Part shown: positions 57,993 through 60,987 of the stretch, piece after piece | Layout: each line of letters opens with the position of its first letter | Position numbering within the stretch: the first letter of the stretch is position 1 | Origin: Anaerohalosphaera lusitana | GTDB taxonomy: Bacteria > Planctomycetota > Phycisphaerae > Sedimentisphaerales > Anaerohalosphaeraceae | Direction: 5' to 3' | NCBI RefSeq assembly: GCF_002007645.1 | Contig: NZ_CP019791.1 | Location: 682,001-746,000, forward strand | DNA: 64,000 bases | Notes under the pieces: generated by a model | The model's input: only the letters and a program-made list of their open reading frames with translations | Told to the model about the DNA's origin: nothing | The model's database searches: none | Made by a program: the position numbers and the translations under genes

Positions 57993-58403
57993 ATGAAAAT
58001 TTATGACGAAGTGGTAGATGTCAGGACGAATAAGCGTAACGATATGATAGACATTACCGCGAAGGTGCGGGATGTTGTGGTTAAGTCGGGTGTGGCGAAC
58101 GGTGACTGTATCGTTTTCTGCAAGCATACGACGGGCGGGGTGACGATCAATGAGAACGCGGACCCGGATGTGGTGCATGATGTGCTGCTGACGCTGGATG
58201 AGCTGGTGCCTGAGCATCGGACGGGGTACCGGCATGGCGAGGGCAACAGTGATTCGCATGTGAAGAGTTCGCTGGTGGGGTGCAGTGAGCAGGTGCTGAT
58301 AAAGGACGGCCGGCTGGTGCTGGGTACGTGGCAGGGGATATATTTCTGCGAATTCGATGGGCCGAGGAGCAGGAAGGTGGTTGTGCAGGTTCGCGGGGAG
58401 TAG
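57993..58403 (+). CDS. yjbQ: YjbQ/UPF0047 family protein
   Basis: 136 residues from ATG 57993 (GAGGAT upstream). Family motifs: [35 protein letters not shown] (conserved His residues) and [20 protein letters not shown]. Members have weak thiamine-phosphate synthase activity and may bind metal. Located 40 bases after argS, so probably co-transcribed. Confidence 0.93.
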
Positions 58404-58540
58404 CTGGGGGCAGTTTCGTTTGGAATCTCGTTTGCACGGACGCTGTAAAGTTACCGGCGTTCAGGTAGATTCTTCGGTAATATGCGGCGCAGCGGCAGGA
58501 ATTTCTGATGCTATTATGGGCGGTGCATGATCATAGCGCA

Positions 58541-58641
58541 TAAAAATGGCGAGGTAGCAGAGCCGTCTGGGGGGGAAAACGGTTATCTACTTTGCCTCGC
58601 CGAGGTTTATAGTAAAAGCTACATGAGCTTTACATTCAACA
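58541..58641 (-). ncRNA. Candidate small RNA
   Basis: A consensus promoter (58648-58676, minus) is followed by about 100 transcribed bases. The transcript ends in a strong hairpin (GGCGAGG...GTAG pairing with CTACCTCGCC, 58548-58601, with an inner CCGT/ACGG stem) and a U-tract (complement of 58542-58546). The only frame inside is seven codons, so a non-coding RNA or short leader transcript fits best. It does not resemble 6S, SRP RNA, tmRNA or RNase P to me. Confidence 0.55.
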
Positions 58642-58647
58642 TGCTGT

Positions 58648-58676
58648 AGTATATCCCGCGGGGTAATCCCTGTCAA
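58648..58676 (-). promoter_or_regulatory. Sigma-70-type promoter of the candidate small RNA
   Basis: TTGACA (58676-58671), exactly 17 bases of spacer, then TATACT (58653-58648) on the minus strand. This is close to the full consensus and stands in a gene-free region. Confidence 0.7.
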
Positions 58677-58872
58677 CAGGGTAGGGGTAAATTTTCTGCA
58701 AAAAATCAGGGAAATTATGGTTATTTCCGTAGTGGAGGCTACTGATGGGGCTCGGGTTATGACGGTTTTATGGGTTTTGCAACCGGTTGCTTGGGTTGTG
58801 GACTTAAAAGGCTCGCAAAGGTTGACTGGGCTGTTTGTGGTGGTAGGGGGACGATTGGGGGTGAATGTATGC

Positions 58873-58902
58873 AAAAGGCCCGCGCTGGTGAGCACGGGCC
58901 TT
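58873..58902 (-). terminator. Hairpin, likely terminator of the gene at 59075
   Basis: AAGGCCCG (58875-58882) pairs with CGGGCCTT (58895-58902); on the minus strand TTTTGC follows. About 170 bases past the stop of the winged-helix gene. Confidence 0.55.
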
Positions 58903-58920
58903 GAAGATGTCTTTGCCTGG

Positions 58921-58966
58921 TTACGCTGAACCTGAAAAGCCGTTTGAATCGGGGGATTCAGCGTAA
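58921..58966. repeat. Perfect 10-bp inverted repeat
   Basis: TTACGCTGAA (58921-58930) and TTCAGCGTAA (58957-58966) with a 26-base loop. Could be part of an RNA structure or a binding site; no assignment made. Confidence 0.5.
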
Positions 58967-59074
58967 TAAACAGCATTTTTATAAGTGCAAAACCTTACCC
59001 TGGCAACCGTCTATATATACGCGTAACAGTATATAAAGGCCGTCTGATAAAGCAGATTACACTTATGCAAAGCG

Positions 59075-59482
59075 TTATTTATTAACGGTATAACCTTTGC
59101 CGCGGACGTTGCTGAAGCAGTTAAACTTGTTGAGATAAACTGAGACGGTCGCGGGAGAGAGGCCTGTCTTTTTGGCGATCTCTTCTTTTTTCATTGGCTT
59201 TGATCCCATTACTTCTACCAGCTTGTACGGACCCGTGCCTTTTTCGGGCATATCTGGTTTGGCCTTTTTGGCTCTGCCTCTGCCGCGAGTCTTGCGTTTG
59301 CGGGTGGCTTTGGGCTTTGCTGACGGAGTACCGATCAGGTCGTTGATCTGACTGTCGATCTTTGTAACTTTTTCCATCAGTTCGGATCTTTTAGCCTGAA
59401 GGTCAGCCAACTGATCGAATTTGCCGGCCTTGTCCATAGTCGCCTGTAGTTCGTTCATCATCGTTTTGTTCATCTTTGCCAT
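59075..59482 (-). CDS. Small basic DNA-binding protein with winged-helix-like C-terminus
   Basis: 135 residues from ATG 59482 (AAAGGAAC upstream). Three parts: a coiled coil (about 1-50, LADLQAKRSELMEKVTKIDSQI), a basic linker with AT-hook-like RKRKTRGRGRAKK (about 62-76), and a C-terminal helix-turn-helix (MKKEEIAKKTGLSPATVSVYLNK). The layout recalls nucleoid-associated or silencer proteins of the H-NS/Lsr2 idea (oligomer + DNA contact) without sequence similarity. Function inferred only. Confidence 0.7.
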   Translation of the reverse strand: MAKMNKTMMNELQATMDKAGKFDQLADLQAKRSELMEKVTKIDSQINDLIGTPSAKPKATRKRKTRGRGRAKKAKPDMPEKGTGPYKLVEVMGSKPMKKEEIAKKTGLSPATVSVYLNKFNCFSNVRGKGYTVNK

Positions 59483-59892
59483 TTCTCTGTTCCTTTTGAA
59501 TTTAAAAGCACATGTCAATTCCTTTATTAATATATAACACTGATTCGGCTATTTAGCAAACTTTATATAGTACTGATATTTTATTTTATATACGAGTATT
59601 ATTGAGATGCCCAAGTCAGGTTCATGTGCGTATTCTGCTGTGATCTTGCGATTCGGTCTCTACTTCGTCAAAGTGTGTCGCTGGTTGTTGAAGCTGTTGG
59701 ATTAAGCGCTTGAACGTTGGTGCGGTTTAGCTTAAATTATGGACTATATCTGTGATTGCGGGTTTTCCGTCATTTGAGCGGCCGATTCAGGCAATCGGGT
59801 GTAAAGCAGGGGTATTCAAGGATTTTACCAGAGGCAAACATTTCGGCCGGCAGCGAGGCTGTGGTCGTGATTGATATTTTGGAGTTTACTGC
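59483..59892. other. AT-rich intergenic region
   Basis: About 410 bases between divergent genes; notably AT-rich at 59519-59600 (TATATA tracts). No gene or repeat assigned. Confidence 0.5.
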
Positions 59893-60987
59893 ATGGCAAA
59901 GCGGAAGAATATACCGATTGAAGAGCGAATAATAGAGAATGCCAGGGGTGTTCACGGCAAGATCGTCAAGAGCCAGAAGCCGACGATGAGTACGCCGGTT
60001 CGTTCCCTATCGAACGTGAAATACGATACGAAAAAGGGCTTTTTCCAGATCATGGGCAAGAGCAAGCTGCGTACGCTTACGGTGAGTACGTGCAAGGCGT
60101 TTGCTCAGACGCTGAAGATGATGGCGCTTTCGAAAGAGCTGATCGATACGGATGATATCGCGACGAAGAGGGAAGCGTATTATATTTCGAAGAACTGGGG
60201 CAAGGCAGGTTTTTCGGATCAGCCCGAGTCGGACACGATCATGGACGATGTGGAAGCGATGTTTACGGTAAATCGTGAGCAGCTAAAGTTCGTGCCTGAA
60301 GAGAAGGGCGGTGACATCGCCGGAAACCTGATCGTGATGGACAAGGACAGCAAAGGCCGAAAGCTCAAGATCGACTGTACGAAGTTCGGCAGCGGCGCTT
60401 ATTCGATCCCTAGCAGTGTCGAGGAGCTGAAATTCAAGAGCGATGCGAAGTTCATACTGGCGATCGAGACGGCTGGTATGTTCCAGCGGCTGGTGAAGTA
60501 TGATTATTGGGCGAAGCAGAACTGCATACTGGTAAGCATGGGAGGCGTGCCGACGCGTGCGTGCAGGCGGTTTATCAGGCGTTTGAGCGATGAGCTCAAG
60601 ATCCCTGTCTACGCGTTTGTGGATGGTGATCCGTACGGGTATTTCAATATTTATCGTACTCTGAAGGTGGGCAGCGGTAATGCGGCCCATATCAATGAGT
60701 TTTTCTGCGTGCCGAAGACGCGTTTTCTGGGTGTGACGCCGCAGGATATCAAGGATTACGGTCTGCCGACGCATCCGCTCAAGGAGGTGGACATCAAGCG
60801 GGCGAAAGATGCGCTCAAGAACGATCCGTTCGTCAAACATCACAAGAAATGGCAGGCTGCGATCAATCAAATGCTCAAGATGGGCGTTCGTGTCGAGCAG
60901 CAGGCGTTTGCGAAGCACGGGCTGGACTTTGTGGTCAACGAGTATTTGCCTGCGAAGTTGAAGAAGACGTCTTCGTTCCTGCCTTGA
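59893..60987 (+). CDS. top6A: DNA topoisomerase VI subunit A (Spo11-like)
   Basis: 364 residues. Winged-helix 5Y-CAP domain with the catalytic tyrosine in REAYYISKNW (about 97-106), then a Toprim domain: ILAIETAGMF (Glu) and FVDGDPYGYFNIY (DxD metal ligands), with GSGNAAH. This is the DNA-cleaving half of topoisomerase VI, which relaxes and unlinks DNA together with the ATPase subunit B. Subunit B is not adjacent, which is unusual. Typical of archaea, with scattered bacterial homologs including Planctomycetes. Confidence 0.92.
   Translation: MAKRKNIPIEERIIENARGVHGKIVKSQKPTMSTPVRSLSNVKYDTKKGFFQIMGKSKLRTLTVSTCKAFAQTLKMMALSKELIDTDDIATKREAYYISKNWGKAGFSDQPESDTIMDDVEAMFTVNREQLKFVPEEKGGDIAGNLIVMDKDSKGRKLKIDCTKFGSGAYSIPSSVEELKFKSDAKFILAIETAGMFQRLVKYDYWAKQNCILVSMGGVPTRACRRFIRRLSDELKIPVYAFVDGDPYGYFNIYRTLKVGSGNAAHINEFFCVPKTRFLGVTPQDIKDYGLPTHPLKEVDIKRAKDALKNDPFVKHHKKWQAAINQMLKMGVRVEQQAFAKHGLDFVVNEYLPAKLKKTSSFLP

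Follow-up and report, generated by a model that had tools for sequence, protein, structure and literature searches.

We identify on the minus strand of a 64,000-nucleotide stretch of Anaerohalosphaera lusitana DNA (the window) a stand-alone small RNA gene, with its promoter at 58676-58648 and a predicted RNA running from about 58641 to about 58541. The gene belongs to an RNA family of the class Phycisphaerae that has had no name until now. The family has a common design of a promoter and a terminator hairpin whose loop holds a run of at least six C's, to which a 5' hairpin of free sequence is added in the order Sedimentisphaerales. Measured against Rfam 15 and the papers searched, this conserved RNA family is new or unnamed.

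Locus, promoter and transcript

The first-pass annotation had pointed, giving no strand, to a TTGACA-17-TATACT promoter followed by about 100 bases and a U-tailed hairpin, in a gap of about 670 bp between yjbQ and a gene for a DNA-binding protein. All of these elements are present: the promoter lies on the minus strand and agrees with the consensus at 11 of 12 positions, the arms of the hairpin (58601-58595 and 58554-58548) are followed by AUUUUUA, and the gap between yjbQ and the gene for a small HTH protein measures 671 bp. The strand, the invariant C-run of the loop and the range of the family are additions to that annotation. The features of the locus are as follows.

58671-58676, minus strand: -35 element TTGACA, exact consensus
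58648-58653, minus strand: -10 element TATACT after a 17-nt spacer, from the sequence and from promoter pairs in homologues
58541-58641, minus strand: small RNA transcript of about 100 nt, with ends predicted from the -10 element and the U-tract
58615-58631, minus strand: 5' hairpin AAAGCU-CAUGU-AGCUUU, whose sequence is free and whose pairing is preserved among relatives
58602-58610, minus strand: conserved linker AUAAACCUC preceding the stem, from alignment columns
58595-58601, minus strand: 5' arm of the terminator outer stem, GGCGAGG, 99.5% paired in 87 copies
58586-58590, minus strand: 5' arm of the middle stem, GUAGA, with its partner UCUGC at 58557-58561; all 4 model pairs show double changes, 99.7% paired
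58579-58582, minus strand: 5' arm of the inner stem, CCGU, with its partner ACGG at 58563-58566; all 4 pairs show double changes, 91.9% paired
58569-58575, minus strand: CCCCCCC run of the loop, proposed as the seed for pairing, with conserved C columns, predicted to be unpaired
58548-58554, minus strand: 3' arm of the terminator outer stem, CCUCGCC, pairing with covariation
58541-58547, minus strand: U-tract AUUUUUA, the predicted 3' end of the transcript, conserved on the minus strand
57993-58403, plus strand: yjbQ (UPF0047), the convergent neighbour (Pfam PF01894), found at 62 of 85 homologous loci
59075-59518, same strand as the RNA and upstream: gene for a small HTH protein, Pfam match just below cut-off

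The RNA is predicted to fold at -32.8 kcal/mol (z = -3.86) and none of 200 shuffled sequences was equally stable; the window's own 5' hairpin is weak (z -0.18). The DNA of the gene is single copy in its own genome, where other matches to a 221-base query are due to chance, and the covariance-model match at G000:C1:740539-740637 on the minus strand (window 58539-58637) is the sole one. A consensus scan of the region returned two promoter-like sites against a shuffle mean of 2.3, which is chance level, and its list of terminators did not contain the sRNA hairpin, probably because the loop and internal loops lie beyond the limits of the scan. With promoter-like sites at chance level, the case for the gene therefore rests on its relatives, in which conservation and covariation are decisive. 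A GC-rich hairpin (58867-58902), some 170 bases beyond the HTH gene, reads as a minus-strand terminator. Sub-threshold Rfam matches to Thr_leader, Leu_leader and STnc100 at 58867-59038 probably reflect an ordinary GC-rich terminator and were set aside.

Conservation and covariation in relatives

Going by record titles, the order considered here is the Sedimentisphaerales, in which the Anaerohalosphaeraceae are family f1. Most of the 59 relatives compared with the 221-base query gave alignments of some 65-120 bases, with 74-93% identity. In a MAFFT alignment of 41 copies that was not fitted to any structure (A1), CCUCGGCGAGG is nearly invariant and the C6 invariant, and CUCGCC and a U-tract are also seen. 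For the 15 base pairs of the 3' hairpin, 98.5% of the cells of this alignment are paired and double changes are found in 25 cells, against 5.0 after shuffling; in a control with the partner slid by 1-3 columns only 40-54% were paired.

A covariance model built from these 41 homologues (R1) detected the RNA in 123 of the 148 genomes of the order, a few of which (e.g. G043, G084 and G093) have weak or second-type matches only (see below), and in 60 of 66 good genomes. Six of 294 genomes matched in a phylum-wide sample, all six of them within the Sedimentisphaerales. Across 87 model-aligned copies, in an alignment that leans towards the structure because it was fitted to the model, 93.4% of cells are paired and 299 cells carry double changes, against 86.4. 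Covariation in relatives, named beforehand as a point on which the proposal could fail, is strong (0.453 against 0.153 in the shuffled alignment). For the 5' hairpin, double changes occur in 7 of 7 model pairs, with 84.2% of cells paired in the structure-fitted alignment; its folding z lies below -1 in 70 of 84 homologues (mean z -2.15), and it has no conserved sequence. Of 83 homologues, 55 have a promoter pair 30-110 nt ahead of the terminator hairpin, compared with 155 of 1660 shuffled regions.

Five columns of the loop are C in all 87 copies. The longest C-run measures 6-9 in 85 of 85 copies from the order and 6-8 in all 20 distant copies, and it is predicted to be unpaired, with a mean probability of at least 0.98, in 105 of 105 copies. 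Throughout the class it is the loop that selection maintains, and the stems need only pair.

Within the order the RNA occupies one place, convergent to yjbQ-argS. Over 85 loci, where several of the absences are due to contig ends, the counts are 62 for yjbQ (convergent and downstream in every case), 61 for yggS, 54 for argS and 42 for topoVIA (divergent and upstream in every case), and both yjbQ and topoVIA lie on the strand opposite to the RNA at every locus of the order where they were found. The HTH gene flanks the RNA at one of the 85 loci, that of the window. R1 found no RNA in near-complete genomes of family f4, and at the f4 loci L267, L268 and L269 topoVIA comes directly after yjbQ with no trace of the RNA. 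Covariation, positional conservation and the fixed genomic place support the first-pass reading of a small RNA gene with its own promoter and terminator. The topoisomerase VI subunit A gene, the neighbour at the 42 loci above, is at 59893-60987 of the window; topoisomerase VI is mainly an archaeal type.

To extend the family beyond the order, a covariance model rebuilt from the 87 copies (R2) was run on 397 genomes of the class, and it matched 81 genomes of the order and 18 further genomes in families f98, f109 and f112. Homology is likely for the weaker among the class-level matches, with E 1e-4 to 1e-8 per genome. In the distant copies compensated versions (GGCCAGG/CCUGGCC or GGGCCGG/CCGGCCC) take the place of the outer stem, which hardly varies within the order; in the 20 distant copies double changes are found at 4 of 7 pairs, 100% of cells are paired, and a promoter pair is present in 16, compared with 22 of 1000 shuffled. 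The -10 element of f98 ends 9-10 nt ahead of the stem in 10 of 12 copies, and with the promoter directly ahead of the hairpin the f98 transcript should be little more than the hairpin itself. Helix 1 of alignment A5 is not trusted in f98, where the model lays it over apparent promoter DNA. Several f98 copies precede a DUF1844 gene. In f109 the RNA lies behind tRNA-Gln(CUG) on the same strand at 7 of 7 loci (L338, L342, L346, L348, L350, L355 and L356), which is a second, independent fixed neighbourhood. Among the 80 of 117 stretches listed from a pattern scan, eight loci with clearly non-planctomycete titles were checked with R2; none of the eight matched better than E 0.14, and they were taken as chance.

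R1 also picks up a weaker, different RNA in several genomes of the order (L087-L104; L087 1966-2075, L089 2006-2116 and L090 2066-2173). This second RNA has the base CUCGGCGAGG...CCUCGCC and the U-tract of the main RNA, in most cases a C-rich loop with a different sequence, and a conserved 5' part that is longer, AAGGCCGACCACGGANGGUC...GCCUUAACGGAUU (alignment A4, 12 of 16 copies). In all 16 copies examined it is found in a 3' UTR, on the same strand behind a conserved gene for a protein of about 89 aa, which belongs to no clear Pfam family among the three tested. The second RNA has no match in Rfam 15, and its locus is often beside HPP-membrane or cheB genes.

Known families and candidate targets

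That no known RNA family is apparent, as the first-pass annotation had stated, is borne out by Rfam 15, in which a search of the whole window gave no match at gathering score. At E <= 10 the region 58500-58720 returned only a sub-threshold hsp17 match on the opposite strand, and in the distant loci Rfam 15 matched nothing except tRNAs. The over-cut-off match of this genome to 6S RNA (RF00013) lies elsewhere, at G000:C1:2184440-2184621. For 6C (RF01066) there was no match at E <= 10 in the genome of the window (G000) and none over cut-off in 10 genomes, whose weak RF01066 matches are never at the RNA's own place; 6C also requires two C-loops, and here there is a single C-run in the terminator loop, with the 5' loop free. 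Hfq (PF17209) was found in none of 59 genomes in a search whose controls gave a signal in 5 of 14, and the class of Hfq-dependent small RNAs, which requires Hfq in the genome, was rejected. The gene has the marks of a trans-encoded sRNA, namely its own promoter, an intrinsic terminator, no same-strand gene that it leads, and a conserved secondary structure with compensatory changes. The papers searched, which include few from subscription journals, describe no such planctomycete RNA, and the main texts of the 26- and 50-genome discovery papers contain none of the planctomycete names searched for. Excerpts of a 2022 review give eight sRNA families for the PVC group (PMC9029176).

Several known RNAs share parts of this design. 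According to excerpts of the reports, B11/6C of the Actinobacteria (RF01066) has a Rho-independent terminator loop with a C-run, used as a seed in B11, in a lineage without Hfq (PMC12395582, PMC10470900), and the C-rich terminator loop of B11 binds G-tracks adjoining ribosome-binding sites in mycobacteria, which have no Hfq (PMC12395582). In contrast to the RNA described here, where the run is in the terminator loop only, 6C is named in an excerpt for two stem-loops with about six C's each (PMC4046766). RepG of Helicobacter pylori is likewise an intergenic RNA whose C/U-rich terminator loop binds a G-repeat in an mRNA leader, and its second stem-loop alone suffices (PMC8295292, in part). It belongs to another phylum, however, its known target is a length-variable G-repeat, and it is likened to the present RNA by design and not by sequence. 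H. pylori is not known to have Hfq. In the Firmicutes, unpaired C-rich stretches of IsrR, RsaE, RoxS and FsrA pair with Shine-Dalgarno regions; the part of the IsrR report cited here describes action without Hfq and, unlike the present RNA, three C-rich regions of which none is in the terminator (PMC9410917), and the structures differ.

We then looked for G-tracts that the C-run might read. The target tests covered about one fifth of the genome with guessed start codons, and in this sample GGGGGG occurs between -40 and +15 at 4 of 615 predicted starts, compared with 67 of 12108 coding segments and 4 of 613 segments further upstream, which is no enrichment. Hybrids below -14 kcal/mol were predicted at 15 of 615 starts, as against 17 of 615 controls from coding sequence and 15 of 615 starts when the seed was reversed. 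The pattern CTGGGGGGGAAA, with one mismatch allowed, was found at 14 places (including the opposite strand of the gene itself), as opposed to 3 for the backward pattern; none is a multi-copy match, and an rRNA target is thus not suggested. The best single candidate is a patatin-like gene with CTGGGGGGAAAA 13 nt ahead of its ATG, a tract that its closest homologue (L328) does not keep. Taken together, the G-tract sample, pattern search, context, candidate conservation and hybrid energies gave no conserved target. These negatives are weak, as target prediction from C-rich regions was also inaccurate for B11 (PMC12395582, in part).

Proposed mechanism and rival readings

Because the same design is described in excerpts for B11 (PMC12395582) and RepG (PMC8295292), antisense action through the C-run appears the most likely role, and by this analogy we lean towards reading the stand-alone gene as an Hfq-free trans-acting antisense RNA whose exposed C-run would act on G-tracts. 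A sigma-70-type promoter would drive transcription and the RNA's own U-tract would end it, giving an RNA of about 100 nt that is probably abundant, given a promoter near consensus. The exposed C-run would pair with G-tracts in mRNAs at or near ribosome-binding sites, and the pairing could block translation or alter stability without Hfq, as reported for B11/6C of mycobacteria and RepG of Helicobacter. Protection of the 5' end is probably all that the 5' hairpin provides, since the sequence of this hairpin drifts freely and the f98 promoter leaves no room for it. A strand-switch, with the CCUC ahead of the stem pairing to GAGG so that the terminator does not close, is weakened by the change of position 65 to A in 8 of 87 copies that are otherwise unaltered there, and by the second-type RNAs, which break it.

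The main rival to antisense action is a protein-binding role, in which an RNA-binding protein, titrated or guided by the RNA, would bind the C-rich loop together with the conserved CUCGG(C/G)GAGG base. The loop is invariant across lineages, yet the predicted G-tract targets are not enriched, and a loop that does not vary throughout the class could just as well be such a protein site. CUCGG, moreover, seems to be conserved for its own sake: the A at position 65 in the eight copies breaks the alternative CCUC/GAGG hairpin, and the second-type RNAs retain CUCGG while the stem changes, with this base in common and loops that differ. We nevertheless regard a protein site as unlikely, as homopolymeric C loops of terminator hairpins are a documented pattern of antisense seeds (PMC8295292 and PMC12395582, in excerpts) and the distant families replace the base of the stem with compensation, having mainly the C-run in common.

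The U-tail of the hairpin and the HTH gene upstream on the same strand in the window would also fit a hairpin that only terminates transcription, or attenuates it within a leader, with no separate RNA. It is very improbable that this is all there is, because the HTH gene is peculiar to the window's locus and elsewhere topoVIA/yggS upstream and yjbQ downstream are on the opposite strand (with one yggS exception, L017), leaving no gene to terminate or attenuate, and because the promoter and a covarying 5' hairpin intervene. There is scarcely any chance that the gene encodes an already known housekeeping RNA such as 6S: occurrence as a single copy in a single place throughout the order would suit one, but the 6S match elsewhere in the genome refutes 6S, no Rfam family matches, and the RNA is not indispensable, being absent from the near-complete f4 genomes in which topoVIA follows yjbQ. 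Equally remote is a mobile or repeated element (REP, MITE or attachment site), a reading to which the second copy in some genomes might point and which is refuted by synteny, with a single copy here and fixed neighbourhoods in the order and in f109.

Returning to the antisense reading, a broader version of it is tentative and, in our view, somewhat doubtful. The RNA may be a class-wide Hfq-free master regulator, a self-terminating one-hairpin gene whose C6-7 loop, its sole constant part through the radiation of the class, would read G-tracts genome-wide and which would carry lineage-specific decoration (the 5' hairpin in the Sedimentisphaerales, the site behind tRNA-Gln(CUG) in f109, the fused promoter in f98), while the 3' UTR of a gene for a small conserved protein would have taken up a second RNA of the same base. 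Whichever reading holds, the RNA would add a new covariation-supported family to a phylum with little known regulatory RNA, and as no Hfq was found in the 59 genomes, it is a concrete handle on planctomycete riboregulation.

Two minor observations concern single loci. Tandem second copies of the RNA lie shortly behind the first at L051 1851-1939 and L106 2183-2293 (two family f2 genomes). A strong R2 match is also found in CAMDDF010000099.1 (L151), which is titled Candidatus Kuenenia stuttgartiensis, a title that may be a misassignment.
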